The notes under the pieces are model-generated. The model saw only the letters and a program-made list of their open reading frames with translations, was not told the origin of the DNA and did no database searches. A program made the position numbers and the translations under genes. Shown one piece after another: positions 8,705 through 32,787 of a DNA stretch of 58,483 bases. Numbering within the stretch: the first letter of the stretch is position 1; each line of letters starts with the position of its first letter. Source of the DNA: Eubacteriales bacterium (GTDB taxonomy: Bacteria > Bacillota > Clostridia > Lachnospirales > Lachnospiraceae); the NCBI GenBank assembly GCA_030536755.1, contig JAUNPJ010000016.1, positions 1-58,483 of the forward strand, written 5' to 3'.

Positions 8705-9283
8705 CTAATCCCGGAACACAATCTCACCCGTTTTTTCATCCATACTTTCTACAATAGCCAGAGATTCGAGATGGATTCCTCTGGAGCGAATCAGGTCTCC
8801 GCCCACCTGAAAGCCCTTCTCGATCACAATGCCGGCACCTACCAGAGTCGCTCCGGAATCTTCGATCAGCTTTGCCAGCCCCTCCAGAGCTTTGCCATTT
8901 GCAAGGAAATCATCAATGATCAGCACTTTATCTTCTTTTCCCAAAAATTCTTTCGCAACGATGATATCATAAACACGGCTGTGGGTAAATGATTCCACTT
9001 TTGTGGTGTATACATCTCCGGCAATATTCTTCGTCTGAGTCTTTTTTGCAAATACTACGGGAACATTGAAAACTTCTGCAACTACGCAGGCAATTCCAAT
9101 GCCTGATGCCTCGATTGTAAGAATTTTGTTGATTTCTTCTTCCTCAAATCGGCGCTTGAATTCCTTTCCGATTTCGTGGAAAAGATTTACATCCATCTGA
9201 TGGTTCAGGAAGCTGTCTACTTTTAAGACATTGCCTTCCTTAATCTTTCCATCTTTCCTGATTCTGTCCTTTAATAATTTCAT
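8705..9283 (-). CDS. xpt: xanthine phosphoribosyltransferase
   Basis: A 192-residue type I phosphoribosyltransferase joining xanthine with PRPP to form XMP. Visible features are the EASGIGIA segment, the flexible loop with [22 protein letters not shown], and the PRPP-binding motif [14 protein letters not shown]. It is close in length and order to Bacillus Xpt. ATG at 9283 with GGAGG nine bases upstream is favoured over the ATG at 9301, which has only a poor site. It is the last gene of the yqeC-xdh-mocA direction and has a good internal promoter at 9319. It could salvage xanthine made or spared by the neighbouring purine enzymes. Confidence 0.93.
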
Positions 9284-9318
9284 CCTTCCTGTCCTCCGCA
9301 TTGTTCCTATTGCAAATT

Positions 9319-9347
9319 ATTTTACTTACTTTCTTATATAAATGCAA
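9319..9347 (-). promoter_or_regulatory. promoter of xpt
   Basis: On the minus strand TTGCAT (plus 9342-9347) and TAAAAT (plus 9319-9324) are spaced 17 bases. It lies between mocA and xpt, so xpt can be expressed independently of the xdh operon. No purine riboswitch core was seen in this short gap. Confidence 0.65.
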
Positions 9348-9369
9348 GCAGTTTATGTATGGGATTTTT

Positions 9370-10002
9370 TTAATCATACTCCATCGTCCATACATCCACA
9401 TCCCGCAGCTCATCTTTGTTTTTTATGCCAAAAAATTCCACTTCACTCCAGTGGTCTTTGAGTACCTTTTTTCCACCTCGGTCACCTTCCAGTTTCAAAA
9501 GTTCCGGGAAAAACCGCCTGGAAAACCATACCGGATTTCCGGTTATTTCCCCGCAACAGACACATCCAAGTCCATCGGAACATCGTTTTTCCATATCTGT
9601 CAGAAAACTTTCCGCCGTCTCCTCTGACAGATATGGCTGGTCTGCCACAAAAAATGCACAGGCATCGGCATCCTGCGCCTCGCGAATCGCTGCTTTTACC
9701 GACCACGAAGCTCCCTTGCAGCTGTCCGGCGAAAAAACGGCTCGGACTCCCAGCTTCTCTGCCGTCTCCAGAATCTCGGAATACTGTGTCACCACCAGTA
9801 CTTCCCACTGGGAGTGACGACTGCAGATTCTGATCAGCCGCTTTAGCAGATGCAGATACATGGGCTTTCCTTCTATAGAAAAAAGCAGCTTATTCTCCGG
9901 CATTTTTTCCGGAATAAGATGCTTTTTTTCTTTCAGCAAACGAATGCTTTCTCCAAATCGGCGGCTGTTTCCAGCCGCCAGATAAATCAATGTCACTCTC
10001 AT
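9370..10002 (-). CDS. mocA: molybdenum cofactor nucleotidyltransferase (MocA-like)
   Basis: A 210-residue NTP-transferase (MobA/MocA superfamily). The N-terminal loop LAAGNSRRFGE binds nucleotide, followed by ENKLLFSIEGKPMYLH. A VADQPYLSEET metal-binding Asp motif and a GNPVWFSRRFFPELLKLEGDRGGK block are typical of MocA. MocA adds CMP to molybdopterin to form the cytosine-dinucleotide cofactor used by xanthine dehydrogenase-family hydroxylases. The start overlaps the hydroxylase large-subunit stop by four bases (ATGA), which implies translational coupling. The adjacent xdh genes support the assignment over MobA. Confidence 0.87.
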   Translation of the reverse strand: MRVTLIYLAAGNSRRFGESIRLLKEKKHLIPEKMPENKLLFSIEGKPMYLHLLKRLIRICSRHSQWEVLVVTQYSEILETAEKLGVRAVFSPDSCKGASWSVKAAIREAQDADACAFFVADQPYLSEETAESFLTDMEKRCSDGLGCVCCGEITGNPVWFSRRFFPELLKLEGDRGGKKVLKDHWSEVEFFGIKNKDELRDVDVWTMEYD

Positions 10003-12275
10003 TTTTTCAGCAATCCCATAGCAATCTTCTCACTCGTGATCGGGAGCTCACGGAACCAGAGTCCCGTTGCGTTATAAATCGCATGTGCCAGAGCAGGAGA
10101 AGGCGTGTTGATGACAATCTCACCGATGGATTTTGCGCCAAACGGCCCGGTCGGTTCATAACTCGGTTCAAATTCTACTCTCAATTTCCCCATATCCAGA
10201 CGCGTGGGGACTTTATACTGCATAAAGGACTGGTTCATCATCTGTCCCTTCTGCGTATACTGAATATTCTCGTACAGAGCCATTCCGATTCCCTGCACCA
10301 GTCCGCCCTCGACCTGAACCCGAGCCAGATTTGGGTTGACGACCGTTCCACAGTCCACAACCGCCACATAATCAAGAATCTCTACATGCCCCGTTTCTTT
10401 GTCCAGTTCAATCTCAACCATACCAACCATAAATGGCGGCGGAGAGACAGGTGAACTGTGAGACTCCGTCACCTGAAGCGCACATTCGTTTCCACACATG
10501 GAGGAAGTTCCGATTTCCTGCAGAGTGACAGATTTTCCACTGTCCAGATCTTTGACCACATGTCCGTCAAATTCCAGACCTTCTGCCGAACACTCCATCA
10601 TCTGAGATGCTCTCTGACAGATTTTTTCTTTCAGCTTTTCACATGCCCGCTCCACCGCACGTCCTGTCACATACGTCGTGCTCGATGCATACGAGCCGGA
10701 GTCATACGGAGACGTGTCGGTATCTGCACCGGACACAATGATATCATCAATGCCACAGTCCAGACATTCCGCAGCCATCTGCGCCAGAATCGTGTCACAT
10801 CCGGTTCCCATATCTGCCGCTCCGATCATCAGTGTATAGATGCCATCCTCGTTCAGCTTGATAGTCGCTGACCCCACATCGACACCGGAAATACCGGAGC
10901 CCTGCATCGCCATGCTCACGCCGACGCTTCGAACTTTTCCGTTACCCATGTCACGGCACGGAAACTTCTCATCCCATCCGATCATCTCTTTTGCTCTCAT
11001 CATGCAGCGATCCAGCGCACAGCTTCTCGTTGTCTCGCCGTAATACGCCGGCATCACCTGACCCTCGCGAACCATGTTTTTCATCCGCAGTTCCACCGGA
11101 TCCATGCCGAGTTTAGCGGCAAGCTGACTCACAGCGCTCTCTACCGCAAAAATCCCCTGTGTCGCCCCATAACCTCGGTACGCACCGGCTGACATCGTGT
11201 TGGTGTAAACAACATCGTAGGCAAAGCGGAAAGATTCCAGTGAGCCATACAGAGGAATCGATTTATGTCCGGAAAGTCCGACGGTAGTCGGGCCATGCTC
11301 TCCGTAAGCACCGGTGTTGGACAGCGTGTAGACATCAATGGCACGAATCTTACCATTTTTATCGGCACCGACACGAACGGATACTTCCATTTCATGTCTC
11401 GGAGAGGAAGCAATCTGGGATTCCTCACGGGTAAAAATCATTTTGGATGGCTTTCCTGTCTTCCAGGTGACAAAGGCAGGATAAATCTCTGCAACAGCTG
11501 ACTGCTTTGCTCCAAAACCGCCGCCGATTCTTGGTTTCACAACCCGGATCTTTGATTTTGAAGTTCCAAGCGCCTCCGAAAGAATTCTTCTCAGATGAAA
11601 GACGATCTGTGTCGAACTGAGCACATTCAGCCGCCCATACGCATCCATGTAACAGGTAGTACGAAATGTTTCCATCATAGCCTGCTGATTGGCCAGTGTA
11701 TGATACGTCTCTTCCACAACAACGTCACAGTCCTCCAGAACCGCATCGATATCACCCATTGCATCGCTGCCGCAAGCACACAGATTTCTTTTATTGTCCG
11801 CTCCTACCGGACATTTTGCTTCCCAGTTTTCTTCCGGATGTACCAGAAGCACATTGTCCTTTGACTCATGAAAATCAAGAAGCGCAGGGAGCACTTCATA
11901 CTCTACTTTGATCATCTTTAATGCCTTATCCACACAGGCATCGTCCTCGCCCGCTACGATTGCAACCGGATCTCCGACATAACGCACATGACGATCCAGG
12001 ATCAGCCGGTCATAGGGACTTGGCTCCGGATAGGTCTGTCCCGCCATCGTAAACCTCTGATTCGGCACATCCTCCCACGTATATACCACTTCAATACCGG
12101 CAGCTTTTTTCGCTCTCTCTGTATTAATTGACTTCACCATGGCATTTGCGTGAGGACTTCTCAATACTTTTACGATCAGACAGTCTTTTGGCGCCACATC
12201 ATCCATATAGACCGGTTTTCCTGTCACCAGCGCCATGGCATCTTTTTTTCGGATCGGCTTACCTACTACCCTCAT
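9999..12275 (-). CDS. xanthine dehydrogenase-family molybdopterin-binding subunit
   Basis: A 758-residue large subunit of a three-gene molybdenum hydroxylase. The aldehyde oxidase/xanthine dehydrogenase a/b hammerhead domain occupies about residues 15-125. The cofactor domains carry RIGGGFGAKQ, GAYRGYGATQG, AADMGTGCDT and GPFGAKSIGE, whose Glu is the expected catalytic base. Such enzymes hydroxylate or dehydroxylate purines (hypoxanthine, xanthine, urate) or related heterocycles in the cytoplasm; the exact substrate is not readable. With yqeB and yqeC in the same region, a labile-selenium (selenium-dependent molybdenum hydroxylase) form is likely. The start overlaps the Fe-S subunit gene by four bases. 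Confidence 0.92.
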   Translation of the reverse strand: MRVVGKPIRKKDAMALVTGKPVYMDDVAPKDCLIVKVLRSPHANAMVKSINTERAKKAAGIEVVYTWEDVPNQRFTMAGQTYPEPSPYDRLILDRHVRYVGDPVAIVAGEDDACVDKALKMIKVEYEVLPALLDFHESKDNVLLVHPEENWEAKCPVGADNKRNLCACGSDAMGDIDAVLEDCDVVVEETYHTLANQQAMMETFRTTCYMDAYGRLNVLSSTQIVFHLRRILSEALGTSKSKIRVVKPRIGGGFGAKQSAVAEIYPAFVTWKTGKPSKMIFTREESQIASSPRHEMEVSVRVGADKNGKIRAIDVYTLSNTGAYGEHGPTTVGLSGHKSIPLYGSLESFRFAYDVVYTNTMSAGAYRGYGATQGIFAVESAVSQLAAKLGMDPVELRMKNMVREGQVMPAYYGETTRSCALDRCMMRAKEMIGWDEKFPCRDMGNGKVRSVGVSMAMQGSGISGVDVGSATIKLNEDGIYTLMIGAADMGTGCDTILAQMAAECLDCGIDDIIVSGADTDTSPYDSGSYASSTTYVTGRAVERACEKLKEKICQRASQMMECSAEGLEFDGHVVKDLDSGKSVTLQEIGTSSMCGNECALQVTESHSSPVSPPPFMVGMVEIELDKETGHVEILDYVAVVDCGTVVNPNLARVQVEGGLVQGIGMALYENIQYTQKGQMMNQSFMQYKVPTRLDMGKLRVEFEPSYEPTGPFGAKSIGEIVINTPSPALAHAIYNATGLWFRELPITSEKIAMGLLKK

Positions 12276-12739
12276 ACCGTACCTCCCTGTTTCTTATATT
12301 CCATAAATGCATGAATTGCCCGAAGCTGTCCCTCATATCCGGAACAGCGGCAAAGGTTCCCTGCCAGATATTCTTTGATTTCTTCATCGGATGGGGATGG
12401 ATTTTCCCGAAACAGTGCGATTGCATTCATCACCATTCCCGGATTGCAGAATCCACACTGATCGGCACCCTGGTCGGCGATAAATGCACCAAATTCTGCT
12501 GCCTCCTCCTGCAGTCCCTCCAGCGTATCCACCGCATGGCCATCGGCTCTTGCCGTCAGCACAGAGCACGAGAGAACTGGCTTTCCATCCAGAAATACGG
12601 TACAAAGACCGCAGTTGGAAGTTTCACATCCACGCTTTACACTATAACAGCCATGCTTTCTTACAAAATCAATCAGCAACAAATCTGGATTGATTTCATC
12701 CGTAATTTTCTTTCCATTTAACATCAAACTAATCTGCAT
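12272..12739 (-). CDS. [2Fe-2S] subunit of xanthine dehydrogenase-type hydroxylase
   Basis: A 155-residue iron-sulfur subunit with two [2Fe-2S] clusters. The plant-type ferredoxin cluster is held by C38, C43, C46 and C58 (GCETSNCGLCTV then LSC). The helical-domain cluster is held by C95, C98, C130 and C132 (CGFCNPGMVM and LCRCSGYEG). It passes electrons from the molybdenum centre to the FAD subunit. Its gene overlaps both neighbours: four bases with the large subunit and 11 with the FAD subunit. Confidence 0.95.
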   Translation of the reverse strand: MQISLMLNGKKITDEINPDLLLIDFVRKHGCYSVKRGCETSNCGLCTVFLDGKPVLSCSVLTARADGHAVDTLEGLQEEAAEFGAFIADQGADQCGFCNPGMVMNAIALFRENPSPSDEEIKEYLAGNLCRCSGYEGQLRAIHAFMEYKKQGGTV

Positions 12740-13550
12740 ATCGCTGTCCCCTTTCCTCCAGAAGTTTCAAAATACCTCTTTTGATCAGAACCTCCGCCAG
12801 ACGATGTCTGTACGCAGCACTGGCTCTCGTGTTGCTTCCCGTCGGAATCTGTGCCGCCAGCTCTTGTGCCATCTTTTCAGCCTCGTCCTGTGTGCAATTT
12901 CCAAGGATCATCGACTGTACCCATTCCTCTTTCAGCGGCAGGCACATGGCTTTTGCCGGTCTTGCACCTACAACCACTTTTCCGGCGTTCTCATTCACAG
13001 AAAGCGCGACAGCCAATACCGGAAAATCGGTCTTTGTATTTCTATGTGTCAGATACACATGGCATGCCGGTGTCTTTTTGACAATCAGGCGCACCAGAAT
13101 ATCATTGTCCTTTTTCCTCTCTGCAAATTCTTCCAACGGTATCACTCCGCCTTTATACAGCTCCACATAGGTATCCATGGCCAGAAAGCAGGTCAGGATG
13201 TCCGAAAAGCCGAAACGCCCGAAAATACTGCCTCCCACCGTCGCAAGGTTTCGAAACTGCACGCCCACGATATGTCTGACACTCTCACGAATCGCACCCT
13301 GACTGCATGCATCGAGTCCTTCATGCAGTTCCAGCTGACGCAGACTTACCATGCATCCGATGGAAAATTCTTCCTCATTTTCCTCAATCTGATCCAGACC
13401 CAGGCCAGACAAATCGATGACTGTGTGGACTCTGGTGTTGCTCATTTTCATCCAGAGCATTCCGCCTATGATCCGATTCGCTCTTTTCTGATTCAGCTCG
13501 TAAGCCTGTTCCAGACTTTCTGCCTTCACATACTGCTTTACTTTTAACAT
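12729..13550 (-). CDS. FAD-binding subunit of xanthine dehydrogenase-type hydroxylase
   Basis: A 273-residue FAD_binding_5/CO_dh_flav_C protein. The FAD-contact segments are degenerate but recognisable: RIIGGMLWMKMSN at the first glycine motif, then FRNLATVGGSIFGRFGFSDIL at the second. The C-terminal domain follows (GARPAKAM, GSNTRASAAYRHRLAEVLIKRG). It accepts electrons from the Fe-S subunit and reduces NAD+ or a carrier. ATG at 13550 with GGAGG ten bases upstream is used; the longer frame from 13595 lies inside yqeC. The start overlaps the end of yqeC by seven bases. Confidence 0.9.
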   Translation of the reverse strand: MLKVKQYVKAESLEQAYELNQKRANRIIGGMLWMKMSNTRVHTVIDLSGLGLDQIEENEEEFSIGCMVSLRQLELHEGLDACSQGAIRESVRHIVGVQFRNLATVGGSIFGRFGFSDILTCFLAMDTYVELYKGGVIPLEEFAERKKDNDILVRLIVKKTPACHVYLTHRNTKTDFPVLAVALSVNENAGKVVVGARPAKAMCLPLKEEWVQSMILGNCTQDEAEKMAQELAAQIPTGSNTRASAAYRHRLAEVLIKRGILKLLEERGQRYAD

Positions 13551-14218
13551 TTTCCGTCTTCCTCCATATTTTTTAAAGAAATCATACATCCGCAATCGCT
13601 GTACTTTTGCATTTCTTTTTGCATTTCCTCCCGTTCTTCCTCCGAGAGTACATCTATCTGATTAATCACATAACGATATTCACAACGCACACCTTTTTTC
13701 TGTCCTGTCTCCCGAGTCAAAATTCCTATGATATGGTGCGGTCTGATCACCTCATCCGGGCCACACGATAACTCCCTGCAAACCCGCTCATATCTATGAC
13801 ACGCTTCCTGAAACGTCTTTCCTACGGCGCTTGCTCCGGCCACTCCGATGATTAAATCTGCGTCCATAGGAAGAACCGGCTCATGTTCCGCCGGAACCTT
13901 CATCGGCAAGCAGCGGCTTCCATCTGCCTCGACCAACACAACATCATAGTTTTCGAGTAATGTCCTGGGAAACTCTACGGAGAATCCTTTGATTTTTCCC
14001 TCTTCACAGATCGTCCCCAAAGGAACAAGTCCATATCGTCCTTCCGACTGCATATGCGTAGTCGTTGTAATTGCCACCCGATACCCCTTTTTCGTCAATT
14101 CCTTTGCCAAAAGATAGATCAACGTCGTCTTTCCTCCGGCTCCCACGACACCGATCAGTCTGTGTCTGTCAGGAGAAATTTTCAGATATTCTGTCAGAGT
14201 CTTGCTGCCCTTTGTCAT
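13544..14218 (-). CDS. yqeC: selenium-dependent molybdenum hydroxylase accessory protein YqeC
   Basis: A 224-residue P-loop protein of the YqeC family. The Walker A is GVVGAGGKTTLIYLLAKEL near residues 23-41, followed by ITTTTHM, and a VVLVEADGSRCLPMKVPAEHEP block that is very typical of the family. YqeC and YqeB are the recognised genomic markers of molybdenum hydroxylases that carry labile selenium; the biochemical role is unproven. ATG at 14218 has AAAGGAAGG at good spacing, whereas the frame start at 14305 adds an unconserved tail. It is the first gene of the yqeC-xdh-mocA operon. Confidence 0.9.
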   Translation of the reverse strand: MTKGSKTLTEYLKISPDRHRLIGVVGAGGKTTLIYLLAKELTKKGYRVAITTTTHMQSEGRYGLVPLGTICEEGKIKGFSVEFPRTLLENYDVVLVEADGSRCLPMKVPAEHEPVLPMDADLIIGVAGASAVGKTFQEACHRYERVCRELSCGPDEVIRPHHIIGILTRETGQKKGVRCEYRYVINQIDVLSEEEREEMQKEMQKYSDCGCMISLKNMEEDGKC

Positions 14219-14319
14219 GTTACAAACCTTCCTTTCCCCCACTCTTTTGAAAACATACAAGAATTTTGTAGTATCATTGAAATTATTGTAACATCTCATC
14301 GACAAACAGTAAAGAGCAG

Positions 14320-14354
14320 AAAAAAAGAAGGTGACGCATTCTTTACGTCTCCTT
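14320..14354 (-). terminator. terminator of the M20 amidohydrolase gene
   Basis: On the minus strand AAGGAGACG and CGTCACCTT form a 9-bp stem with one mismatch, followed by C and seven T residues. The stem overlaps the last codons of the gene. Confidence 0.75.
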
Positions 14355-15500
14355 CTCGATCTGTTCCATCAGCTGCCAGAGCACCTTCTCACATCGCTCA
14401 ATATCAGTCATCTCCACAAACTCATCTGGTTTGTGTGCATATTTCAGATTGCCCGGTCCATAGGAAAGGCAGTTTTGATTTCCAGTCATTCCCGCGATCA
14501 CCGCAGTATCCGTATATCCGGGAAATGGACCAACTTGCGGCTTTTCCCCGGTTGCCTCACAGACGGCGTTTTTCAGACTTGCTAACAGCCCGGACTGCTC
14601 ATTTTTTTCGATAAACGGACGATTTCCGGTAACCTTGTATTCAACCTGAACTCCCGGCACCAGACGCTCGGCTTTTTTCTTTGCCTGCTCCATGATCTCC
14701 AGCACCATGGTATCCTTGACCGGCGGGGCAAGACGACAATCAATCCAGAGCCTGCATTCATCCGGCACCACATACGGCTGATAGCCGCCCTGAATCTGTC
14801 CAAACGTAATCGTTGTTTTTCCAAGTTCTTCGTGGACAGGAAACTGCTCAAATGCACGTTTCATCTCACAGATAAGCTCTGCCATCGCAGCAATCGCATC
14901 CGCGCCCTGCTCCGGTCGGCTCGCGTGGGCAGTCACACCGTGTACATCTACTTCCAGCCAGAAACGTCCTTTGTGTGCCATCTGAATCTGTCCATCTGTA
15001 GGCTCCAGATCCATCACCCAGTCTTTGGCGGTCACTCTTTTGTTTCGGATTGCCACCTCGACGCCACGCATATCGCCTTCTTCGTCCACTGTGCAGATCA
15101 GGCGCAGTGAACGTCTCAAACTCATGTTTCCCTGTTGGACTTGTTCAGCAGCTTTGTGAAAAACAGCAAGTGCACAGGCAAGGCCGGATTTCATATCGCA
15201 GGCTCCGCGCCCGTAAATACGGCTTCCTTCCACTTTTGCCCCAAACGGATCACGCGTCCAGTCTTTTCCGGTCACTACCGTATCCATATGACAGATCAGC
15301 ACCAGCGCCGGCTCCTGACTCTCTGCTTCCAGGGAAACTATCACATTGCAGCGATCATCCACAACCAAATCTTCCACGATCACCGCACCTGTATCTGAAA
15401 AAAAGTTCCGGATATATGCAGCGACACCACATTCTCCAGTTCCGGGATTGGTACTGTCAATTCGAATCAGTTCTTTTGTGATTTCATAAACATCTTTCAT
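14343..15500 (-). CDS. M20 family amidohydrolase/peptidase (ArgE/DapE-like)
   Basis: A zinc-dependent M20 enzyme of 385 residues. Metal ligands lie in LICHMDTVV and GRGACDMKSGLA. The catalytic glutamate pair is in CTVDEEGDM, and a dimerisation-domain HGVTAHASRPEQGADAI follows. ArgE/DapE relatives hydrolyse N-acyl or N-carbamoyl amino acids and small peptides. It lies between the two purine operons, divergent from a YheO-like regulator. This suggests (inference) that it handles an acyl or ureido intermediate of purine breakdown. Of the clustered ATGs, that at 15500 is five bases from GGAGG and is the best start. Confidence 0.82.
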   Translation of the reverse strand: MKDVYEITKELIRIDSTNPGTGECGVAAYIRNFFSDTGAVIVEDLVVDDRCNVIVSLEAESQEPALVLICHMDTVVTGKDWTRDPFGAKVEGSRIYGRGACDMKSGLACALAVFHKAAEQVQQGNMSLRRSLRLICTVDEEGDMRGVEVAIRNKRVTAKDWVMDLEPTDGQIQMAHKGRFWLEVDVHGVTAHASRPEQGADAIAAMAELICEMKRAFEQFPVHEELGKTTITFGQIQGGYQPYVVPDECRLWIDCRLAPPVKDTMVLEIMEQAKKKAERLVPGVQVEYKVTGNRPFIEKNEQSGLLASLKNAVCEATGEKPQVGPFPGYTDTAVIAGMTGNQNCLSYGPGNLKYAHKPDEFVEMTDIERCEKVLWQLMEQIEKET

Positions 15501-15522
15501 CATATCCTCCATCATTTTGTAA

Positions 15523-15556: not shown

Positions 15557-15569
15557 ATCATGAGATAAT
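15541..15569 (+). promoter_or_regulatory. promoter of the YheO-like regulator
   Basis: TTGAAA (15541-15546) and GATAAT (15564-15569) are spaced 17 bases apart, 36 bases before the start codon. The -35 lies inside the inverted repeat. Confidence 0.7.
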
Positions 15570-15604
15570 AGTATCAGAAAAGCCAGCCAGAAAGGGGGAA
15601 AACT

Positions 15605-20271: not shown

Positions 20272-20314
20272 GCTGTTTCCTCCATCCGAATCTTTTTTTG
20301 AAATACAGCGGAGC

Positions 20315-24717: not shown

Positions 24718-26049
24718 TTATCCGTTAATGCTCTTCCACAGTTTTGCAGAGGATTCTCTGCATTTTGCGTAAGCTTCTTCTACATCCACAACGGTTACTT
24801 CACGATCTTTCATCAGAACTTTTCCGTTTGCGATCGTTGTCACAACATCTCGTCCTGTCATACCGAACAGAATATGTCCGTTGATGTTGTTTTCATCCAG
24901 ATGTGTCGGTGCAATGTAATCTACCACGATCACATCGGCTGCTGCTCCCTCTTTTAATACACCAAGAGGTGCTTTGAAATAACGGTTTGCAATTGCCGCA
25001 TTGTTCTCAAATAACATCTTCGGAACCTCTCCCCATGCTGCATTTGCATCACACAGATGATGTTTGTGGAGTACGTTTGCCACTTTATAGGACTCTGTCA
25101 TGTCGTGCGTATAACCGTCTGTTCCAAGACCGGTCAGAATGCCTCTGTGAACCAGTTCCATGGTCGGAGGGCACCCGCATGCGTTACCCATGTTAGACTC
25201 TGGATTGTGAACGACCATCGTATTCGTATCTTTGATCAGCTCCATCTCATGAGGATTGATGTAGATACAATGTCCAAGAAGTGTCTTCTCCCCGAGAATG
25301 TTGCAGTCCATCAGTCGGTCTACAATGCGTTTTCCATATTTTTTGAGGCAGTCATGAAGATCTTCAATGCCTTCTGCCACATGAATGTGATATCCTACTT
25401 CCTCAGGCTTGTTCGCAGCTGCCAGTTCCATAGTCTCATCAGAGATTGTAAACTGTGCATGCATACCCATCATGCCGGCCAGCATATCAGAATCATCTTT
25501 TAATGCATAACGGATAAATTCTGCATTTTCCATCACGGCCTCACGAGCCTTATCCATTCCGTCTCTGTCGGAAACTTCATAACAAAGGCAGGAACGAATA
25601 CCCAGCTCTTTTGCTACATCTGCAATCGTAAACAGACTGTCTTTGATATGTCCAAAGCTTGCATGGTGGTCAAAGATGGTTGTCACACCATTTCGGATAC
25701 AGGAAATCATCGTATCCATCGCACTGTATTTTGTCTGTTCCAGTGTCAGCTTTCTGTCGATGGTCCACCACTGGCCATCCAGAATGTCGAGGAATCCTTT
25801 CGGGTTGTATCCCTTGATACTCAGTCCTCTCGCCATGGCACTGTAAATATGCTCATGTGTATTGATAAATGCAGGCATAATCAGCTTGCCTTTTGCATCG
25901 ATATATTCTGCATCTTTGTATTTTTCTCTGATTTCTTTCGTCGTGCCGATCTCGGAAATCTTTGTTCCCTCAATCGCAACCGCACCATTTTCAATATATG
26001 GAAGGTCGTTGTTTCTCGTAATCAGTTTACCATTTCCTACTACTAACAT
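24718..26049 (-). CDS. ssnA: putative aminohydrolase SsnA
   Basis: A 443-residue amidohydrolase of the SsnA/TrzA group. Metal-binding motifs are INTHEHIYSAM near residue 60, YHIHVAEG, LLGHCIYI and GLGTDGYTHDM. Relatives deaminate purines or s-triazines (for example guanine deaminase). SsnA is always found beside ygfK and ygeXYW. Its reaction is not established by sequence; guanine- or aminopurine-type deamination, or ring hydrolysis, are possible. GGAGG lies eight bases before the ATG, and ygfK begins 14 bases downstream of its stop. Confidence 0.9.
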   Translation of the reverse strand: MLVVGNGKLITRNNDLPYIENGAVAIEGTKISEIGTTKEIREKYKDAEYIDAKGKLIMPAFINTHEHIYSAMARGLSIKGYNPKGFLDILDGQWWTIDRKLTLEQTKYSAMDTMISCIRNGVTTIFDHHASFGHIKDSLFTIADVAKELGIRSCLCYEVSDRDGMDKAREAVMENAEFIRYALKDDSDMLAGMMGMHAQFTISDETMELAAANKPEEVGYHIHVAEGIEDLHDCLKKYGKRIVDRLMDCNILGEKTLLGHCIYINPHEMELIKDTNTMVVHNPESNMGNACGCPPTMELVHRGILTGLGTDGYTHDMTESYKVANVLHKHHLCDANAAWGEVPKMLFENNAAIANRYFKAPLGVLKEGAAADVIVVDYIAPTHLDENNINGHILFGMTGRDVVTTIANGKVLMKDREVTVVDVEEAYAKCRESSAKLWKSING

Positions 26050-26083
26050 GATTGTGGCCTCCTTATTTTTTCAATATTTTTGC

Positions 26084-27415
26084 CTACTGTTGTTCATTTT
26101 TCGGTTTGGGAAGCACCAGATTCAAAATAATTGCGGAGATTGTCGCAACCACAACCGGTGATTTACCAAACACAGTTGTTACCCATGCCGGGAAGGAAGA
26201 CAGAGCTGCATTTGCCTGAGTGATACCCATGCCAAGTGCGATGGACAGTCCGACGATGGTTGTATTTCTGTAATCCATCGGTGCTGTTGTGATCAGCTTC
26301 ACACCTGTCATTGCAATCGAAGCAAATACGGAAACCGTAGCTCCTCCTAAAACACAATATGGGATGGTAGTTAAAATAGATGAAAATTTCGGAATCAGTC
26401 CTGCAATCAAAAGGATGCCTGCTGCCATTCCAAATACGCGTTTTGCTACTACTTTTGTTGATGATACAATACCTACATTCTGGCTGTATGTCGCAGTCGG
26501 AAGTCCGCCAAACAACGCACACACAACATTACTGATACCATATGCAACAATACCGCCATTCAGTTCTTCATCTGTCGGCATTCTGTCCAGACCGCCTGTG
26601 GTCGTCGCAGAAAAATCTCCGATCGCCTGAATGGAGTTGATTGCAAACAGTACGCCCAGTGCCACACAGGCAGAAGGCTCAAACGTCACACCAAAATGAA
26701 GGGGACTCGGAAGCTGGAACCAGGCTGCATCTGCAACGGAGGCAAAGCTTACCATACCAAAACACATCGATACGGCATAGCCAACAACAATACCGATCAA
26801 AATAGATGCCAGTTTCCAGATACCTTTTCCATAATGGTTCAATGCAGTTACAATGATTAATGTAATAAATGCTACCAACCAGTTCTGCCAGGAACCATAA
26901 CTGGAATTGCTCGTTCCGCCCGCCATATAATTAATCGCAGTCGGATAAAGAGAAAGTCCAATAGCAAACACTACTGTACCCGTGATCAGCGGTGGGAAGA
27001 ATTTACGAATCTGTTTGATAAAGATTCCTACAAGAACCGCTATTACACCGCCGACAATCTGTGCTCCGAGAATCGTTGCGACATCAAAAGAGCCTGCGAT
27101 TGCCTGCATCGTGGGTACATACGCAAAACTAATCCCCATAATAACCGGAAGACCTGATCCGATTCTGATCTTTCCTTTACCAAGCGGATACAACTGTATA
27201 AATGTTGTAAGTGCCGACATCACCAGTGCAGCCTGAATTAGAATTACAGAATCTCTGGGAGACAGCCCCGCTGCTCCCGCAACAATGATCGCAGGTGTTA
27301 CGCATCCGACGATCATAGCCACTACGTGCTGAAGTGCCAGAGGAAGCGCCTGTGATGCGGACGGCTTTCCCTGAATCTGAAATAGTTCTTCCGATGTTTT
27401 TGCTTCTTTACCCAT
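26084..27415 (-). CDS. NCS2 family purine permease (urate/xanthine type)
   Basis: A 443-residue membrane transporter with about 12 to 14 hydrophobic segments. The NCS2 signature QNVGIVSSTK (Q-N-x-G-x-x-x-x-T-K) is intact in TATYSQNVGIVSSTKVVAKR. The family co-transports xanthine, urate or uracil with protons. Genes of the xanthine/urate branch are common beside purine catabolic enzymes, and the first-gene position in this operon supports urate or xanthine as substrate. The leader between 27416 and about 27564 contains hairpins and a possible 15-residue leader peptide. Confidence 0.9.
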   Translation of the reverse strand: MGKEAKTSEELFQIQGKPSASQALPLALQHVVAMIVGCVTPAIIVAGAAGLSPRDSVILIQAALVMSALTTFIQLYPLGKGKIRIGSGLPVIMGISFAYVPTMQAIAGSFDVATILGAQIVGGVIAVLVGIFIKQIRKFFPPLITGTVVFAIGLSLYPTAINYMAGGTSNSSYGSWQNWLVAFITLIIVTALNHYGKGIWKLASILIGIVVGYAVSMCFGMVSFASVADAAWFQLPSPLHFGVTFEPSACVALGVLFAINSIQAIGDFSATTTGGLDRMPTDEELNGGIVAYGISNVVCALFGGLPTATYSQNVGIVSSTKVVAKRVFGMAAGILLIAGLIPKFSSILTTIPYCVLGGATVSVFASIAMTGVKLITTAPMDYRNTTIVGLSIALGMGITQANAALSSFPAWVTTVFGKSPVVVATISAIILNLVLPKPKNEQQ

Positions 27416-27437
27416 TCTTCCTCCTTACTCTCTTCTG

Positions 27438-27474
27438 ACGGACTTTCCTCTCTTACCCTTATTATGGAAAGTCC
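27438..27474 (-). promoter_or_regulatory. 10-bp perfect hairpin before the permease ribosome binding site
   Basis: On the minus strand CGGACTTTCC and GGAAAGTCCG are perfectly complementary, separated by 17 bases, and end 13 bases before the AAGGAGG of the permease gene. The distal arm overlaps the end of a small open frame. A second stem, ATTGGC with GCCAAT (plus 27495-27523), places that frame's start codon in its loop. Confidence 0.5.
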
Positions 27475-27509
27475 GCCCCGAGAACCGTTTCATCATTGGC
27501 TGGTCCCAT
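27462..27509 (-). CDS. possible 15-residue leader peptide of the purine permease
   Basis: An ATG at 27509 opens 15 codons (MGPANDETVLGADFP) ending in Pro-stop, in the leader of the permease gene. A GAGGAG sequence lies only two bases before the ATG, which is close for efficient initiation. The last codons form the 5' arm of the hairpin next to the permease ribosome binding site. A C-terminal proline before the stop recalls stalling leaders such as TnaC, but the peptide is otherwise unlike it. Chance occurrence is quite possible. Confidence 0.25.
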   Translation of the reverse strand: MGPANDETVLGADFP

Positions 27510-27564
27510 GGCTCCTCGCCAATTTTCTGTCAAATGAAAGAGTCGACAAAAGCTCTGCTTCGTA

Positions 27565-27603
27565 CTGTACATTATATGAATATAATAGAGAGACCCTGTA
27601 CAG
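27565..27603. promoter_or_regulatory. nested palindromes at the putative permease promoter
   Basis: CTGTACA (27565-27571) and TGTACAG (27597-27603) flank the palindrome ATTATAT-GA-ATATAAT (27571-27586). The minus-strand TATAAT at 27571-27576 is a plausible -10 element, but no good -35 is seen at 16-18 bases. A weak promoter overlapped by palindromes is consistent with regulator dependence (inference). Confidence 0.45.
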
Positions 27604-27805
27604 AACTGCGCACTGCTTTCGTTCGATGCAATTGGTTTTTCTTCTATAAGTAGAAATTACCGTCTTCACGAATCCATGCAAACCAACTGCATATCTGAGA
27701 AAAATTTTGCACAAAAACCTCTTCTGTTTTCGTACACTTTTACCAAATCTCTCTTTCGTTGTCACCATATTACCATCATTTTCTCCAATTTGCAATACCT
27801 TTCAT

Positions 27806-27837
27806 AAAAATTTTTTTGTTTGCTAAAAATTTTTTAT
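27806..27837. promoter_or_regulatory. A/T-rich operator-like block upstream of the ygeX promoter
   Basis: AATTTTTTTGT followed after six or seven bases by AAAAATTTTTT resembles the inverted repeat at 15523-15556 (AATTTTTTTGT, then AAAAAAATTATT). Here the arms are imperfect. It lies directly upstream of the ygeX -35. A/T simplicity makes the match suggestive only. Confidence 0.4.
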
Positions 27838-27845
27838 TTTTTCTC

Positions 27846-27873
27846 TTGCATTTTTATTTTTTTCTGTTATGAT
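27846..27873 (+). promoter_or_regulatory. promoter of the ygeX-ygeY-ygeW-arcC operon
   Basis: TTGCAT (27846-27851) and TATGAT (27868-27873) are spaced 16 bases, with a predicted start near 27880, about 64 bases before ygeX. Confidence 0.65.
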
Positions 27874-27943
27874 GGAATCAGAGAGACCGAGAACCACTTT
27901 TTTAAAACGTAAAATCATCACCATATCGAAGGAGGATATGAAC

Positions 27944-29197
27944 ATGGGCAACAAACAAGAAAACATTTTAAAATGGACTCTTAACAATATTGCCAAAAGC
28001 GACGACAAACAGGTACAGAATATGTCTCTGGAAGAAATGGCAAAAGCAAGCAATTTCCATAAAAGCTTTCCACAGTATTCTGTCACACCTTTAACCAGAC
28101 TGCAGAACCTCGCAGACTATCTCGGACTGAAACGTTTATATGTAAAAGACGAATCTTATCGTTTTGGACTGAATGCTTTCAAAGTACTCGGCGGATCCTA
28201 TGCGATCGCAAGATACATCGCACAGCAGCTCGACAAAGACGTAAGCGAAGTTCCATACAACGTACTGACTTCTGATAAATTAAGAGAAGAGTTTGGTCAG
28301 GCAACCTTCTTTACTGCAACAGACGGAAATCACGGACGCGGCGTTGCATGGGCAGCAAACAGACTCGGTCAGAAATGTGTCGTAAGAATGCCGAAAGGAA
28401 CGACACAGACTCGTCTGGAAAACATTGCAAAAGAAAATGCAACCGTTACGATTGAAGATCTGAACTACGACGAGTGCGTAAGAATGGCTGCAAAAGAAGC
28501 CGAAGGTACCGAGCGTGGAATCATCATTCAGGATACTGCCTGGGATGGTTATGAAGAGATTCCTACCTGGATCATGCAGGGATATGGAACACTCGCAATG
28601 GAAACTGACCAGCAGCTCGAAGAAGACCAAAGCCGTCCGACACATATTTTCATTCAGGCAGGTGTTGGTTCTCTGGCCGGTGCTGTTATTGGATATTTTT
28701 CAAACCGCTTCAAAGAAAATCCTCCAATCATGGTTGTTGTAGAAGCCGGTGCTGCTGACTGCCTGTACCGCTCTGCTGTTCAGGCTGACGGAAACCGCGT
28801 AGATGTAACTGGAGATATGCTTACCATTATGGCAGGTCTGGCATGCGGCGAAGCAAATACCGTATCCTGGGATATTTTAAGAAACCATGCAAATGCATTT
28901 GTTTCCTGTCCGGACTGGGTAAGTGCAAACGGAACACGTATTTACGGCTGTCCTCTTCCAGGCGACAAACAGGTAACTTCCGGTGAATCTGGTTCTGTTA
29001 CGATGGGTCTTGTTCATGCAATCATGACAAAACCAGAATACGCTGATTTGAAAGAGGCACTGAAACTGAATGCTGATTCTGAAGTTCTGCTGGTATCTTC
29101 CGAGGGTGATACAGACCCGACTCGCTATCGTGAAATCGTTTGGGACGGACTTTGCGGAACAGACAAACGCCCGTTTGCTGATCTGGAGAACAATTAA
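27944..29197 (+). CDS. ygeX: diaminopropionate ammonia-lyase (YgeX/DpaL)
   Basis: A 417-residue fold-II PLP enzyme. The Schiff-base lysine is in FGLNAFKVLGGSYA, the substrate and PLP loops are TATDGNHGRGVAWAA and a glycine-rich QAGVGSLAGAV. DpaL splits 2,3-diaminopropionate into pyruvate and two ammonia; in purine clusters it is implicated in urate degradation. The frame can be read from 27869, but ATG at 27944 has GGAGG eight bases upstream and starts the family homology. First gene of the plus-strand operon; ygeY follows 38 bases later. Confidence 0.93.
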   Translation: MGNKQENILKWTLNNIAKSDDKQVQNMSLEEMAKASNFHKSFPQYSVTPLTRLQNLADYLGLKRLYVKDESYRFGLNAFKVLGGSYAIARYIAQQLDKDVSEVPYNVLTSDKLREEFGQATFFTATDGNHGRGVAWAANRLGQKCVVRMPKGTTQTRLENIAKENATVTIEDLNYDECVRMAAKEAEGTERGIIIQDTAWDGYEEIPTWIMQGYGTLAMETDQQLEEDQSRPTHIFIQAGVGSLAGAVIGYFSNRFKENPPIMVVVEAGAADCLYRSAVQADGNRVDVTGDMLTIMAGLACGEANTVSWDILRNHANAFVSCPDWVSANGTRIYGCPLPGDKQVTSGESGSVTMGLVHAIMTKPEYADLKEALKLNADSEVLLVSSEGDTDPTRYREIVWDGLCGTDKRPFADLENN

Positions 29198-29235
29198 ACC
29201 ATACATATCTACTTATTATATAGGAGGAAAGAAAC

Positions 29236-30549
29236 ATGTTTGATTTTGATAAAGTAAAAGCTGCTGCTGAAGGATACGAAAAAGATATGACTGCATTCTT
29301 ACGTGCAATCGTAAAAAACCCAGGCGAAAGTTGTGACGAGAAGGCTCATATTGATACCATTGCCGCTGAGATGAAAAAAGTTGGATTTGATGAAGTAGTC
29401 ATCGATCCACAGGGTAACGTCATCGGTTATATGGGAACCGGCGACAAGATCATCGCTTACGATGCACACATCGACACCGTAGGTATCGGAAACATCGAAA
29501 ACTGGACCTTTGATCCATACGAAGGCTATGAGACAGAGACAGAAATCGGCGGACGCGGCGTTTCTGACCAGTGCGGCGGTATCGTTTCTGCTGTATACGG
29601 CGCAAAGATCATGAAAGACCTCGACCTTATTCCGGAAGGATGCAAGATCATGGTTGTCGGAACAGTTCAGGAAGAAGACTGCGACGGACTTTGCTGGCAG
29701 TACATCATCAACGAAGACAAGGTTCGCCCGGAATTCGTTGTATCCACAGAGCCGACTGACGGTGGTATCTACCGCGGACAGAGAGGACGTATGGAAATCC
29801 GTGTAGACGTAAAAGGTGTTTCCTGCCACGGTTCTGCTCCGGAGCGCGGAGACAACGCCATCTACAAAATGGCTGACATTCTTCAGGACATCCGTGCACT
29901 GAACGAAAACGATGCAGAAGACGGAACAGAGATCAAAGGTCTTGTAAAAATGCTGGATCCAAAATACAACAAAGACTGGGAAGAGGCTCGTTTCCTTGGA
30001 CGCGGAACTGTTACAACATCCCAGATCTTCTATACCTCTCCAAGCCGCTGTGCAGTTGCTGACTCCTGCTCCGTATCTCTGGACCGCCGTATGACATTCG
30101 GTGAGACATGGGAAAGCTGTCTGGATGAGATCCGCGCACTTCCAAGCGTTCAGAAATATGGCGACGATGTAAAAGTTTCCATGTACAACTACGATCGTCC
30201 ATCTTACACAGGATGTGTATATGAGATTGAGTGCTACTTCCCAACATGGGCAATTCCGAAGGATCACAAAGTAACACAGGCTCTGGAAGCTACTTACAAA
30301 GGTCTGTACGGTGACAAACGTATCGGTGCTGAGGAAACTCTTGAGATGAGACAGGCTCGCCCACTGACAGACAAATGGACATTCTCCACAAACGGCGTAT
30401 CCATCATGGGAAGAAACGGCATTCCATGCATCGGATTCGGACCTGGTGCAGAGGCTCAGGCTCACGCTCCAAACGAGAAAACATGGAAACAGGATCTCGT
30501 TACCTGCGCTGCTGTTTACGCTGCACTGCCTGCACAGTACTGCAAATAA
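29236..30549 (+). CDS. ygeY: M20 family metallohydrolase YgeY
   Basis: A 437-residue M20 family enzyme. Metal ligands are in [14 protein letters not shown] and [16 protein letters not shown], the catalytic Glu pair is in [11 protein letters not shown], and the dimerisation region contains [20 protein letters not shown]. It belongs to the YgeY group, always linked with ygeX and ygeW. Expected to hydrolyse an amide or carbamoyl bond in a purine-derived intermediate; the substrate is unproven. AGGAGG lies six bases before the ATG. Confidence 0.92.
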
Positions 30550-30628
30550 TTCATTTTGAACATTATTTTCGTTTTTTACCTATAAAAATCTAAAAATATA
30601 AAATATATCATTAGGGGGATATTTAAAT

Positions 30629-31822
30629 ATGAAAACTTTACAGACTTATATCGACAAACTCAACGCTTTAAACTTCAAAGACATGTACAATGGTGACTTC
30701 TTCCTGACATGGGAAAAAACTGACGACGAAATCGAAGCTGTATTCACACTGGCAGATGCTCTTCGCTACATGAGAGAAAACAACATCTCCACAAAAGTAT
30801 TCGAGAGCGGCCTTGGAATTTCCTTATTCCGTGACAACTCCACACGTACACGCTTCTCTTTCGCTTCCGCTTGTAACCTGTTAGGTCTTGAAGTACAGGA
30901 TCTGGACGAAGGAAAATCTCAGGTAGCTCACGGTGAGACTGTTCGTGAGACAGCAAACATGATCTCCTTCATGGCTGACGTTATTGGTATCCGCGATGAT
31001 ATGTACATCGGAAAAGGAAACAAATACATGCATGAAGTTGTTGACGCTGTGACACAGGGAAACAAAGATGGTATTCTTGAGCAGAAACCAACACTCGTAA
31101 ACCTGCAGTGTGATATCGACCATCCGACACAGGCGATGGCAGATATGCTCCACATCATCCATGAGTTTGGCGGTGTTGAGAATCTGAAAGGCAAAAAACT
31201 GGCTATGACATGGGCTTACTCTCCATCTTACGGAAAACCATTATCTGTTCCGCAGGGAATCATCGGTCTGATGACTCGTTTCGGTATGGACGTTGTTCTT
31301 GCTCATCCAGAAGGATACGAAGTATTCCCGGAAGTAGAGGCAGTAGCTGCAGCAAACGCTGAGAAATCCGGCGGTTCCTTCACAAAGACAAACAACATGG
31401 CAGAAGCATTCAAAGATGCTGATATCGTATATCCAAAGAGCTGGGCTCCATTCGCTGCAATGGAAAAACGTACCGAGCTGTACGGAAACGGCGACACAGA
31501 AGGCATCAAAGCTCTCGAGAAAGAGCTTCTTGCTCAGAACGCAGAGCACAAAGACTGGGCTTGCACAGAAGAACTCATGGCTACCACAAAAGACGGCAAA
31601 GCACTTTACATGCACTGCCTGCCGGCTGACATCACAGGCGTAAGCTGTAAAGAAGGCGAAGTAGACGCAAGCGTATTCGATCGCTACAGAGATCCGTTAT
31701 ACAAAGAAGCAAGCTACAAACCATACATCATCGCTGCTATGATCTTCCTCGCTAAATTTGCTGATCCGGCTGACATCCTGAAGAAACTGGAAGAAAAAGG
31801 CACTCCTAGAGTATTCAAATAA
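30629..31822 (+). CDS. ygeW: putative carbamoyltransferase YgeW
   Basis: A 397-residue aspartate/ornithine carbamoyltransferase-fold protein. The carbamoyl-phosphate loop is DNSTRTRFSF, followed by CDIDHPTQAMADM and the MHCLPAD segment. YgeW homologues lack activity with ornithine or aspartate in published E. coli work, so the amine substrate is unknown. Beside carbamate kinase it is most easily read as phosphorolysis of a carbamoylated intermediate to carbamoyl phosphate (inference). GGGGG-type site precedes the ATG; length equals E. coli YgeW. Confidence 0.92.
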   Translation: MKTLQTYIDKLNALNFKDMYNGDFFLTWEKTDDEIEAVFTLADALRYMRENNISTKVFESGLGISLFRDNSTRTRFSFASACNLLGLEVQDLDEGKSQVAHGETVRETANMISFMADVIGIRDDMYIGKGNKYMHEVVDAVTQGNKDGILEQKPTLVNLQCDIDHPTQAMADMLHIIHEFGGVENLKGKKLAMTWAYSPSYGKPLSVPQGIIGLMTRFGMDVVLAHPEGYEVFPEVEAVAAANAEKSGGSFTKTNNMAEAFKDADIVYPKSWAPFAAMEKRTELYGNGDTEGIKALEKELLAQNAEHKDWACTEELMATTKDGKALYMHCLPADITGVSCKEGEVDASVFDRYRDPLYKEASYKPYIIAAMIFLAKFADPADILKKLEEKGTPRVFK

Positions 31823-31842
31823 AAAACAGGAGGCAGATTGCT

Positions 31843-32787
31843 ATGGCTAAGAAAAAACGAATCGTTATCGCCCTGGGCGGTAACGCACTTGGAAACACAC
31901 TTCCGGAACAGATGACCGCAGTCAAGATTACTGCAAAGGCAATCGTTGATCTGATTGAAGAAGGCTGCGAAGTTGTTGTCGCTCATGGTAACGGCCCACA
32001 GGTCGGCATGGTAAACAATGCCATGATCGCCCTGACTCATGAGGATCCGCAGCAGCCAAACACTCCTCTCTCCGTCTGTGTTGCCATGAGCCAGGCTTAC
32101 ATCGGCTACGACCTTCAGAACGCTCTTCGCGAAGAGCTTCTGAACCGTGGCATCACCGATATGCCGGTTGCGACCATGATCACACAGGTTCGCGTGGACG
32201 AAAAGGATCCGGCATTTGAGGCTCCTTCCAAGCCAATCGGAAAGTTTGTCTCTGCTGAACAGGCAAAAATGATGGAAGAAAAATACAATTATATCATGAA
32301 AGAAGACTCCGGACGAGGCTACCGTCGTGTCGTAGCTTCTCCGAAGCCTGTGGAAATCGTTGAGATTGGTACCATCCGCACCATGGTCGATTCCGGAGAC
32401 CTTGTGATCGCATGCGGCGGCGGCGGAATCCCTGTCATCCGTCAGGGCAACCACTTAAAAGGTGCCAGTGCAGTTATCGACAAAGATTTCGCAAGCTGTC
32501 TTCTCGCAAAAGAGCTGGATGCAGATTACCTGATCATTCTGACCGCAGTTGAAAAAGTTGCCATCAACTTCGGAAAACCGGATGAAAAATGGCTCAGCGA
32601 CCTCTCCGTCAAGGAAGCAAGCCAGTACATCAGCGAAGGTCATTTCGCACCAGGCTCCATGCTGCCGAAGGTGCAGGCAGCCGTAGACTTTGCCCAGTCA
32701 AAACCGGGACGCACCGCACTCATTACCCTCCTTGAAAAATCAAGAGATGCCATCCAGGGCAAAACCGGAACGATGTTCCATGCATAA
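31843..32787 (+). CDS. arcC: carbamate kinase
   Basis: A 314-residue amino acid kinase family enzyme making ATP from carbamoyl phosphate and ADP. Motifs are ALGGNALGN at the N-terminus, VVAHGNGPQVG, the CGGGGIPV loop and ASAVIDKDFASCLLA. It is the last gene of the ygeX operon, 20 bases after ygeW, with AGGAGG before the ATG. In this context it provides substrate-level phosphorylation from purine carbon and nitrogen, as proposed for E. coli YqeA. A strong terminator follows. Confidence 0.95.
   Translation: MAKKKRIVIALGGNALGNTLPEQMTAVKITAKAIVDLIEEGCEVVVAHGNGPQVGMVNNAMIALTHEDPQQPNTPLSVCVAMSQAYIGYDLQNALREELLNRGITDMPVATMITQVRVDEKDPAFEAPSKPIGKFVSAEQAKMMEEKYNYIMKEDSGRGYRRVVASPKPVEIVEIGTIRTMVDSGDLVIACGGGGIPVIRQGNHLKGASAVIDKDFASCLLAKELDADYLIILTAVEKVAINFGKPDEKWLSDLSVKEASQYISEGHFAPGSMLPKVQAAVDFAQSKPGRTALITLLEKSRDAIQGKTGTMFHA

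Follow-up and report, generated by a model that had tools for sequence, protein, structure and literature searches.

A probable reductive urate degradation island in a Lachnospiraceae genome, with a polyferredoxin as candidate partner of its fused XdhD

The reductive degradation of urate was reconstituted by Li et al. (2025) with enzymes of Escherichia coli and Clostridioides difficile, and the excerpts of that paper drawn on here assign its steps (PMC12507026). In the first step XdhD-YgfM forms yanthine from urate by reduction; YgfK and SsnA lead on to ureidomethyl-hydantoin, and HyuA yields diureidopropionate. The ureido groups are taken off by YgeW or UacY together with YgeY, and diaminopropionate is converted to pyruvate by YgeX. 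According to the same excerpts, xanthine use in E. coli needs XdhA while onward urate degradation needs XdhD, E. coli YgfK accepts NAD(P)H, and an alternative donor such as reduced ferredoxin was suggested for the clostridial enzymes (PMC12507026). A 2025 commentary by Percudani describes the physiological electron donor of XdhAC as undiscovered and treats the sequence in which the ureido groups are cleaved as unsettled (PMC12990295). In the excerpted part of Johnstone and Self, yqeB and selD are important for C. difficile to grow on urate and xanthine (PMC11448449). Here we describe a gene island at positions 8705-32787 of contig JAUNPJ010000016.1 (assembly GCA_030536755.1; 58,483 nucleotides, hereafter the window), from the 3.84 Mb draft genome of a Eubacteriales bacterium of the family Lachnospiraceae. 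Taken as a whole, the island quite likely encodes a ferredoxin-type version of the pathway by which anaerobes degrade urate reductively.

Genes were identified by scanning the window proteins with NCBIfam and Pfam models, to which the curated cut-offs were applied. The island consists of two divergent blocks. The minus-strand block runs permease, ssnA, ygfK, hyuA, yqeB, xdhD, fdx, M20 hydrolase, yqeC, three hydroxylase subunits, mocA and xpt; the plus-strand block holds ygeX, ygeY, ygeW and arcC, and a plus-strand regulator lies between the M20 hydrolase and fdx. Every gene named in a first-pass annotation of this DNA was found in its place, although several scored under the cut-offs. That annotation had passed over the M20 hydrolase and the regulator, and what it had called a ferredoxin is indeed one, but more precisely a polyferredoxin. 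The features of the island are the following, with FAD standing for flavin adenine dinucleotide.

8705..9301, minus strand: xpt, xanthine phosphoribosyltransferase of xanthine salvage (NF006671, 265.3 bits; cut-off 177)
9370..10002, minus strand: mocA-like molybdenum cofactor cytidylyltransferase (TIGR03310, 94.6 bits, under the cut-off of 186.45; a clear relative)
9999..12275, minus strand: molybdenum subunit of a three-subunit hydroxylase, xdhA3 (XdhA model NF043082, 650.4, under the cut-off of 780)
12272..12739, minus strand: [2Fe-2S] subunit of the same enzyme (NF041020, 149.5, under its cut-off; XdhC model NF043084, 134.6, cut-off 217)
12729..13595, minus strand: FAD subunit of the same enzyme, start uncertain (PF00941, 79.3 bits; XdhB model 51.8, cut-off 310)
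13544..14305, minus strand: yqeC, start uncertain (TIGR03172, 170.2 bits; cut-off 73)
14343..15515, minus strand: M20 (ArgE/DapE-like) hydrolase (TIGR01910, 220.9; cut-off 217.6)
15605..16303, plus strand: YheO-type PAS_6/HTH_22 regulator (Pfam)
16402..16878, minus strand: fdx, RnfB-like polyferredoxin (Fer4; below the model cut-off, a clear relative)
16882..19464, minus strand: xdhD, fused iron-sulfur and molybdenum protein of the selenium-dependent xanthine dehydrogenase family, candidate urate reductase (TIGR03311, 1218.8 bits; cut-off 830.45)
19480..20271, minus strand: yqeB, selenium-cofactor maturation (TIGR03309, 322.9 bits; cut-off 220; probable start)
20315..21682, minus strand: hyuA, hydantoinase/dihydropyrimidinase (TIGR02033, 520.7; cut-off 393.25)
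21719..24703, minus strand: ygfK, flavin/iron-sulfur reductase (TIGR03315, 1341.8; cut-off 835.3)
24718..26049, minus strand: ssnA, aminohydrolase and pathway marker (NF005540, 682; cut-off 444)
26084..27415, minus strand: NCS2 purine permease (TIGR00801, 332.4, cut-off 291.8; xanthine permease model 409.5, under the cut-off of 414.15)
27869..29197, plus strand: ygeX, diaminopropionate ammonia-lyase (TIGR03528, 620.2; cut-off 532.25)
29236..30549, plus strand: ygeY, M20 hydrolase (TIGR03526, 657, cut-off 321.5; 61% identical to E. coli YgeY)
30629..31822, plus strand: ygeW, carbamoyltransferase (TIGR03316, 796.4, cut-off 500; 68% identical to E. coli YgeW)
31843..32787, plus strand: arcC, carbamate kinase, counterpart of E. 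coli YqeA (TIGR00746, 378.8; cut-off 358.25)

The listed yqeB frame (19480-20448) is over-long, as the model match begins at residue 62 and the start is likely near 20271. The set that marks a reductive urate cluster, SsnA, YgfK, HyuA, YgeY, YgeX, YgeW and an in-cluster XdhA/XdhD homologue, was found in full. The marks of a selenium-dependent molybdenum hydroxylase, namely TIGR03311, yqeB, yqeC and selD, were all found as well. The genome also carries selA, and its selD (locus L141, contig C44) has one in-frame TGA near the start, consistent with a selenocysteine-containing SelD.

The distribution of these genes was determined in 250 genomes of the same family, the genome of the window included. 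XdhD and the molybdenum protein of the three-subunit enzyme were counted at E 1e-150; the thresholds for these and for the M20 hydrolase were our choice. SsnA was present in 43 of the 250 genomes and fused XdhD in 42, every one of them with SsnA, so that only G322 had SsnA and no fused XdhD. In G346, which belongs to another genus, the core order from arcC to xpt is identical, the M20 hydrolase and the 15605-16303 regulator being missing. These two observations excluded a chance grouping and confirmed that the island is real. Among named genomes, the closest SsnA proteins are those of a Frisingicoccus sp. (93%) and Schaedlerella arabinosiphila (92%).

Two further candidates within the island were set aside. 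The M20 hydrolase of 14343-15515 was kept as a lead only with respect to a pathway step. Its relatives at E 1e-90 occur in 13 of the 250 genomes, all 13 with SsnA (12 of the 12 other carriers, against 42 of the 249 others, uncorrected for relatedness), and among 12 contexts fetched it lay inside the urate cluster only in the window and in G480, and mostly elsewhere. The length of YgeY (437 amino acids against a 395-position model) was dropped as an oddity: 45 of the 46 YgeY frames above 380 amino acids in 80 loci have at least 434, some of the 46 being over-long through the choice of start.

Gene content, order, co-distribution and phylogeny were obtained here, and the reactions are taken from published relatives. 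On this basis, urate would be taken up through the NCS2 permease, and the fused XdhD, presumably a selenium/molybdenum enzyme, would strip the 6-oxygen from urate to give yanthine. Its electrons would most likely come from the adjoining RnfB-like polyferredoxin, there being no FAD-subunit gene next to xdhD. YgfK would then reduce yanthine, SsnA would open the ring to ureidomethyl-hydantoin, and HyuA would form diureidopropionate. One carbamoyl group would be passed to phosphate by YgeW, after which carbamate kinase would make ATP; YgeY would take off the other ureido group and YgeX would release pyruvate and ammonia. A separate purine enzyme attached to the island may be seen in the three-subunit hydroxylase, which together with MocA, YqeC and Xpt would link xanthine or hypoxanthine to urate and to salvage. 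The urate degradation that the first-pass annotation had proposed is supported by the gene content and, in the excerpts consulted, by the published reconstitution of the same gene set (PMC12507026). Its remark that the SsnA, YgeY and YgeW reactions were still open is outdated, these having been assigned in the same excerpts (PMC12507026).

The two hydroxylases differ in how closely they follow the pathway. The three-subunit molybdenum protein was found in 69 of the 250 genomes, 22 with SsnA and 47 without, and it is missing from 21 of the 43 SsnA genomes. Fused XdhD is associated with SsnA at a Fisher p of 2.6e-46, the three-subunit enzyme at 4.9e-4 (own genome excluded, relatedness uncorrected). 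Among the 68 other genomes carrying the three-subunit enzyme, 52 have yqeB. The 20 contexts fetched of the 69 contained, near the molybdenum gene, a relative of mocA in 11, xpt in 6 and an NCS2-type permease in 5, and several of these neighborhoods are in genomes without SsnA. Fused XdhD tracks the pathway, and the three-subunit hydroxylase is no dedicated part of it. The presence of two hydroxylases in one island was also considered as an unusual trait and dropped: at least 12 of 80 SsnA loci (L069, L093, L100, L101, L109, L110, L112, L113, L114, L120, L126 and L132) hold fused XdhD and a three-subunit molybdenum gene, the fused XdhD being cut or having a cut partner in two of them.

The ancestry of the hydroxylases was analyzed with a maximum-likelihood tree of the molybdenum domain, for which 48 sequences were hand-picked from the fetched hydroxylases and 7 were dropped as redundant, leaving 41 rows. 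The three-subunit molybdenum protein clusters with XdhD of E. coli and Cetobacterium, two haloarchaeal enzymes and one Shinella enzyme (support 99/98). The XdhABC group is separate (100/100), and all fused XdhD proteins form a third clade (100/100). In approximately unbiased tests, with clades defined only after the first tree had been viewed, the grouping of fused XdhD with the E. coli and Cetobacterium XdhD was rejected (p 1.6e-20), as was that of the three-subunit enzyme with the XdhABC group, the clade of E. coli XdhA (p 1e-4), while that of the three-subunit enzyme with the E. coli and Cetobacterium XdhD was not (p 0.42). The FAD subunit is closer to E. coli YgfM (57 bits) than to E. coli XdhB (39 bits), and the fused XdhD is 26% identical to E. 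coli XdhD. Judged from these comparisons, the homology is crossed: it is the three-subunit enzyme that is related to E. coli XdhD, the fused XdhD forming a lineage of its own. The active-site motifs read KED/YRG/GE in the fused XdhD, KQ/YRG/GE in the three-subunit enzyme and KQ/YQG/SE in E. coli XdhD; Cetobacterium XdhD retains YRG, so the glutamine is not a constant of the E. coli type. In Cetobacterium somerae, xdhD lies in a cluster (L244, on the 664-kb plasmid NZ_CP143320.1) with genes annotated as diaminopropionate ammonia-lyase, YgeY, SsnA, a D-aminoacylase, guaD and an FAD-binding subunit, and the E. coli-type XdhD does seem to serve the urate pathway there. The fused enzyme, of separate lineage, would serve the pathway in the family of the window according to its distribution, and the urate-reductase role was then probably recruited twice. 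That one hydroxylase acts oxidatively and the other reductively, as had been suggested for the window, is on record for E. coli XdhABC and XdhD-YgfM in the excerpts of PMC12507026, but these roles cannot be transferred by name, because the three-subunit enzyme is nearer to E. coli XdhD and the fused XdhD belongs to a third lineage.

The gene next to xdhD, fdx, begins three bases past it and encodes 158 amino acids with four CxxCxxCxxxC motifs; in its alignment, 19 columns are cysteine in 19 of 19 rows, the window included. Its closest solved structures are the RnfB chains 9eri_B (E 1.8e-30) and 7zc6_B (E 9.8e-30), and residues 23-150 correspond to the RnfB ferredoxin domain. The protein stands alone, without the N-terminal part of RnfB, and with 114.8 against a cut-off of 437 for the RnfB-type equivalog it falls outside full-length RnfB. 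An rnfCDGEAB operon is located on contig C22 of the genome, and the RnfB encoded there is the nearest paralog of fdx (48% identical).

The position of fdx was then scored in 80 named SsnA loci, 38 of which have a complete fused xdhD. It was downstream of xdhD in 7, upstream in 3 (L072, L073 and L086) and absent in 28. The 7 downstream loci are exactly the 7 whose XdhD scores above 1600 bits against that of the window, and fdx is the next recognized gene in them; no more than 10 bases separate the two genes in 5 of the 7, the frames overlap in L120, and 340 bases intervene in L070. The upstream loci represent a second XdhD clade, and 7 further loci, with xdhD cut by the end of the locus, also have a homologous fdx directly upstream. 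The very close locus L061 was left unjudged because its xdhD is cut. Among 30 loci of the family sample, fdx was downstream in 4 (the window, G317, G346 and G399) and upstream in 2 (G423 and G503); the pair thus occurs in each of the three remaining sampled genomes whose XdhD reaches 78% identity. Changes in fdx linkage numbered 2 on the XdhD tree and 5 on the YgfK tree (41 and 37 rows, sets not identical), and the Blautia sp. locus L110 combines a YgfK of the Blautia group with a window-type XdhD and fdx. These results make fdx a candidate for the undiscovered electron donor of the first enzyme, XdhD. In a literature search on RnfB or ferredoxin with xanthine dehydrogenase, selenium-dependent molybdenum hydroxylase and uric acid, RnfB appeared, among the matches listed and in the excerpts they offered, only in a metronidazole proteome study.

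Several observations weigh against this reading. The 28 of 38 loci with a complete fused XdhD and no adjoining fdx mean that fdx is not needed by all members. In G421, of the same genus as the window, fdx follows ygfK (L213) and both XdhD genes are on other contigs; the one examined, on C267 (L230), has no such fdx alongside, and the other is on C280. G466, whose XdhD is 71% identical, has no fdx, nor do the close relatives L065 and L066, whose XdhD is a different one. Neighboring genes, moreover, travel together anyway. On the side of the enzyme, E606 of E. coli XdhD, proposed to steer it to yanthine, lies in an insertion missing from both window hydroxylases, while a glutamate is aligned there in the E. 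coli and Cetobacterium XdhD. In G280, XdhB- and XdhC-like genes precede xdhD in place of fdx. The electron-input part of XdhD thus seems exchangeable. The G421 order and the 28 loci would fit a polyferredoxin that serves YgfK or is a general carrier and came to lie beside xdhD by the chance of operon building. We consider this unlikely, although it deserves attention: the 7 named and 3 further sampled genomes closest to the window in XdhD all carry the pair, a homologous fdx directly precedes xdhD in the second XdhD clade, fdx tracks the ancestry of XdhD better than that of YgfK, and YgfK need not have a ferredoxin, given that the E. coli protein takes NAD(P)H in the excerpts of PMC12507026.

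The assignment of the first step to the fused enzyme must also be weighed against the tree, since the three-subunit enzyme, as kin of E. coli XdhD-YgfM, could itself be the urate-to-yanthine reductase, leaving the fused selenium-type enzyme as a xanthine dehydrogenase. The 99/98 grouping, the rejection of the XdhABC placement and the YgfM-like FAD subunit all favor this, and the fused XdhD retains the E/R/E residues of xanthine dehydrogenases, whose role is known from the bovine enzyme. Yet it seems improbable, for the 47 of 69 carriers without SsnA would have no known route for using up yanthine, and the three-subunit enzyme is absent from 21 of 43 SsnA genomes while fused XdhD is present in 42 of 43. 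Moreover, the C. difficile protein named XdhD is itself merely 25.63% identical to E. coli XdhD, as given in the excerpts of PMC12507026. The presence of xpt near the three-subunit molybdenum gene (6 of 20 contexts, 5 of them in genomes without SsnA) would suggest an island whose main task is to recover nitrogen and to feed purines into salvage through Xpt, and not to ferment urate as a source of carbon and ATP. We hold this to be quite improbable, as YgeW with carbamate kinase, and YgeX, would yield ATP and pyruvate, and the published pathway ends in pyruvate. A bolder reading, somewhat less likely than not in its full form, is that a urate 6-reductase was invented twice: once as the FAD-subunit form of E. 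coli and Cetobacterium, NADH-linked in E. coli, and once in Lachnospiraceae as a selenium-type fused enzyme, possibly driven in the lineage of the window by a dedicated Rnf-derived ferredoxin.

Related loci elsewhere hold further genes. On contig C107 of G421 (L213), selD, yedF, a cysteine desulfurase-type gene, a gene for a double-cubane protein, yqeB and yqeC are located beside ssnA-ygfK-fdx. The genome of the window has a second fused XdhD (contig C57, L058 2524-8624) beside an FAD oxidoreductase, a 94-amino-acid ferredoxin and a MobA-like protein, and the nearest kin of this XdhD are in the urate clusters of two Hungatella-labelled metagenome-assembled genomes, L065 and L066.

Three features bear on the regulation and extent of the island.

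27416..27868, no strand: divergent promoter region with imperfect A/T dyads near 27.82 kb (weak)
45203..46207, minus strand: XdhC-family molybdenum cofactor maturation factor, a probable satellite of the island (PF13478/PF02625)
46274..47008, plus strand: YheO-type regulator, counterpart of the regulator beside ygeX/ssnA in relatives (Pfam)

The island had been called complete, which holds for its catabolic enzymes and not for the regulator that relatives keep beside ygeX/ssnA. The best match of the latter in the window is the protein of 46274-47008 (58%, versus 24% for that of 15605-16303). Its counterpart is present in 50 of 80 SsnA loci and is 49-63% identical in the best 60 loci; of the 65 loci that extend 3.5 kb or more upstream of ssnA, 36 have it within that distance on the opposite strand. 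In the window it adjoins the XdhC factor, 12 kb past arcC and beyond a heme/cobalt block. Relatives of the XdhC factor were found in 16 of 140 fetched loci. In G346 the regulator adjoins ygeX and an XdhC-family factor (40% identical) comes immediately after arcC, so the arrangement of the window may be a secondary split of the island. The 15605-16303 regulator shares 65% identity with the one that follows fdx in L119. A search for literature linking YheO with uric acid found none.

Upstream of ssnA, 14 loci (e.g., L090 and L097) have A/T-rich dyads in tandem, spaced by about 20 bp and with the arms CTAAAA/TTTTAG, a possible operator of the YheO-type regulator and a weak lead. Of 43 intergenic stretches, 16 have tandem A/T dyads 18-21 bp apart (against a mean of 0.3 and a maximum of 2 under a dinucleotide model), 14 of the 16 coming from a hand-picked Mediterraneibacter-like set of 16 loci. 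An operator shared more widely was rejected: outside that set, only L123 and the window had the dyads among 27 stretches (expected 0.2, maximum 2).

Other window genes lie around the island. Directly after arcC, on the opposite strand, is a heme/siroheme block (32857-39254) of hemL, hemB, a cobA-hemD fusion, hemC, a precorrin-2 dehydrogenase-like gene and hemA, followed by a cobalamin riboswitch (39485-39658) and by cbiM, cbiQ and a 560-amino-acid fusion of a CbiO-type ATPase with a CbiK-type cobaltochelatase (39812-43349). An ABC permease and ATPase of the sulfonate/nitrate type (43579-45136) have weak similarity to SaoP/SaoA, far under the cut-offs; this transporter was rejected as part of the system, its permease having no match at E 1e-15 in 140 fetched loci (3 from its own genome). 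The reading frames at 6384-7478 (364 amino acids) and 4242-5072 (276 amino acids) are putative genes with no confident family match.

The island thus represents a variant of a pathway already solved, and it is the electron input that varies. The pathway reactions, and the use of one oxidative and one reductive hydroxylase in E. coli, were already known; the candidate ferredoxin partner and the probable double origin of the urate-reductase role are new here. The pathway bears on host urate; in the excerpts of PMC12507026, an E. coli Nissle strain made to overexpress the cluster brought down the serum urate of mice. The xdhD-fdx pair offers a concrete, testable gene for the donor question and is also present in the cultured Schaedlerella arabinosiphila DSM 106076 (L133). 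If the double origin and the dedicated ferredoxin are true, urate removal by gut bacteria would be tied to the low-potential ferredoxin pool, and the donor question would be answered. The crossed homology is a warning against naming the xdh genes of these clusters by the E. coli scheme, because co-distribution points to the fused enzyme and not to the kin of E. coli XdhD.

Compared with the E. coli cluster of Li et al. (2025), the window shares SsnA, YgfK, HyuA, YgeW, YgeY, YgeX and carbamate kinase, at 33-68% identity. Unlike it, the window has an XdhD of another molybdenum hydroxylase lineage, no adjoining YgfM, an added RnfB-like ferredoxin, YheO-type regulators instead of the sigma-54-dependent YgeV, and a different gene order. 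The C. difficile cluster is similar in the distance of its XdhD from that of E. coli (25.63% identity, against 26% for the window) but, in the excerpts of PMC12507026, has UacX and UacY where the window has YgfK and YgeW. For the C. difficile and C. sporogenes clusters, which were set beside the window by their descriptions, those excerpts suggest a ferredoxin donor and name no gene; XdhAC of C. sporogenes presumably has no FAD subunit, judging by its name. With the selenium-dependent molybdenum hydroxylases (E. faecalis EF2570, clostridial xanthine dehydrogenase and purine hydroxylase) the window shares TIGR03311, yqeB, yqeC and selD, but it has two hydroxylases in one island and its labile selenium is putative. 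The three-subunit enzyme resembles E. coli XdhABC in its make-up, while the tree and the curated cut-offs place it outside that group. Finally, fdx matches the ferredoxin domain of RnfB of the Rnf complex but stands alone, without the N-terminal part.

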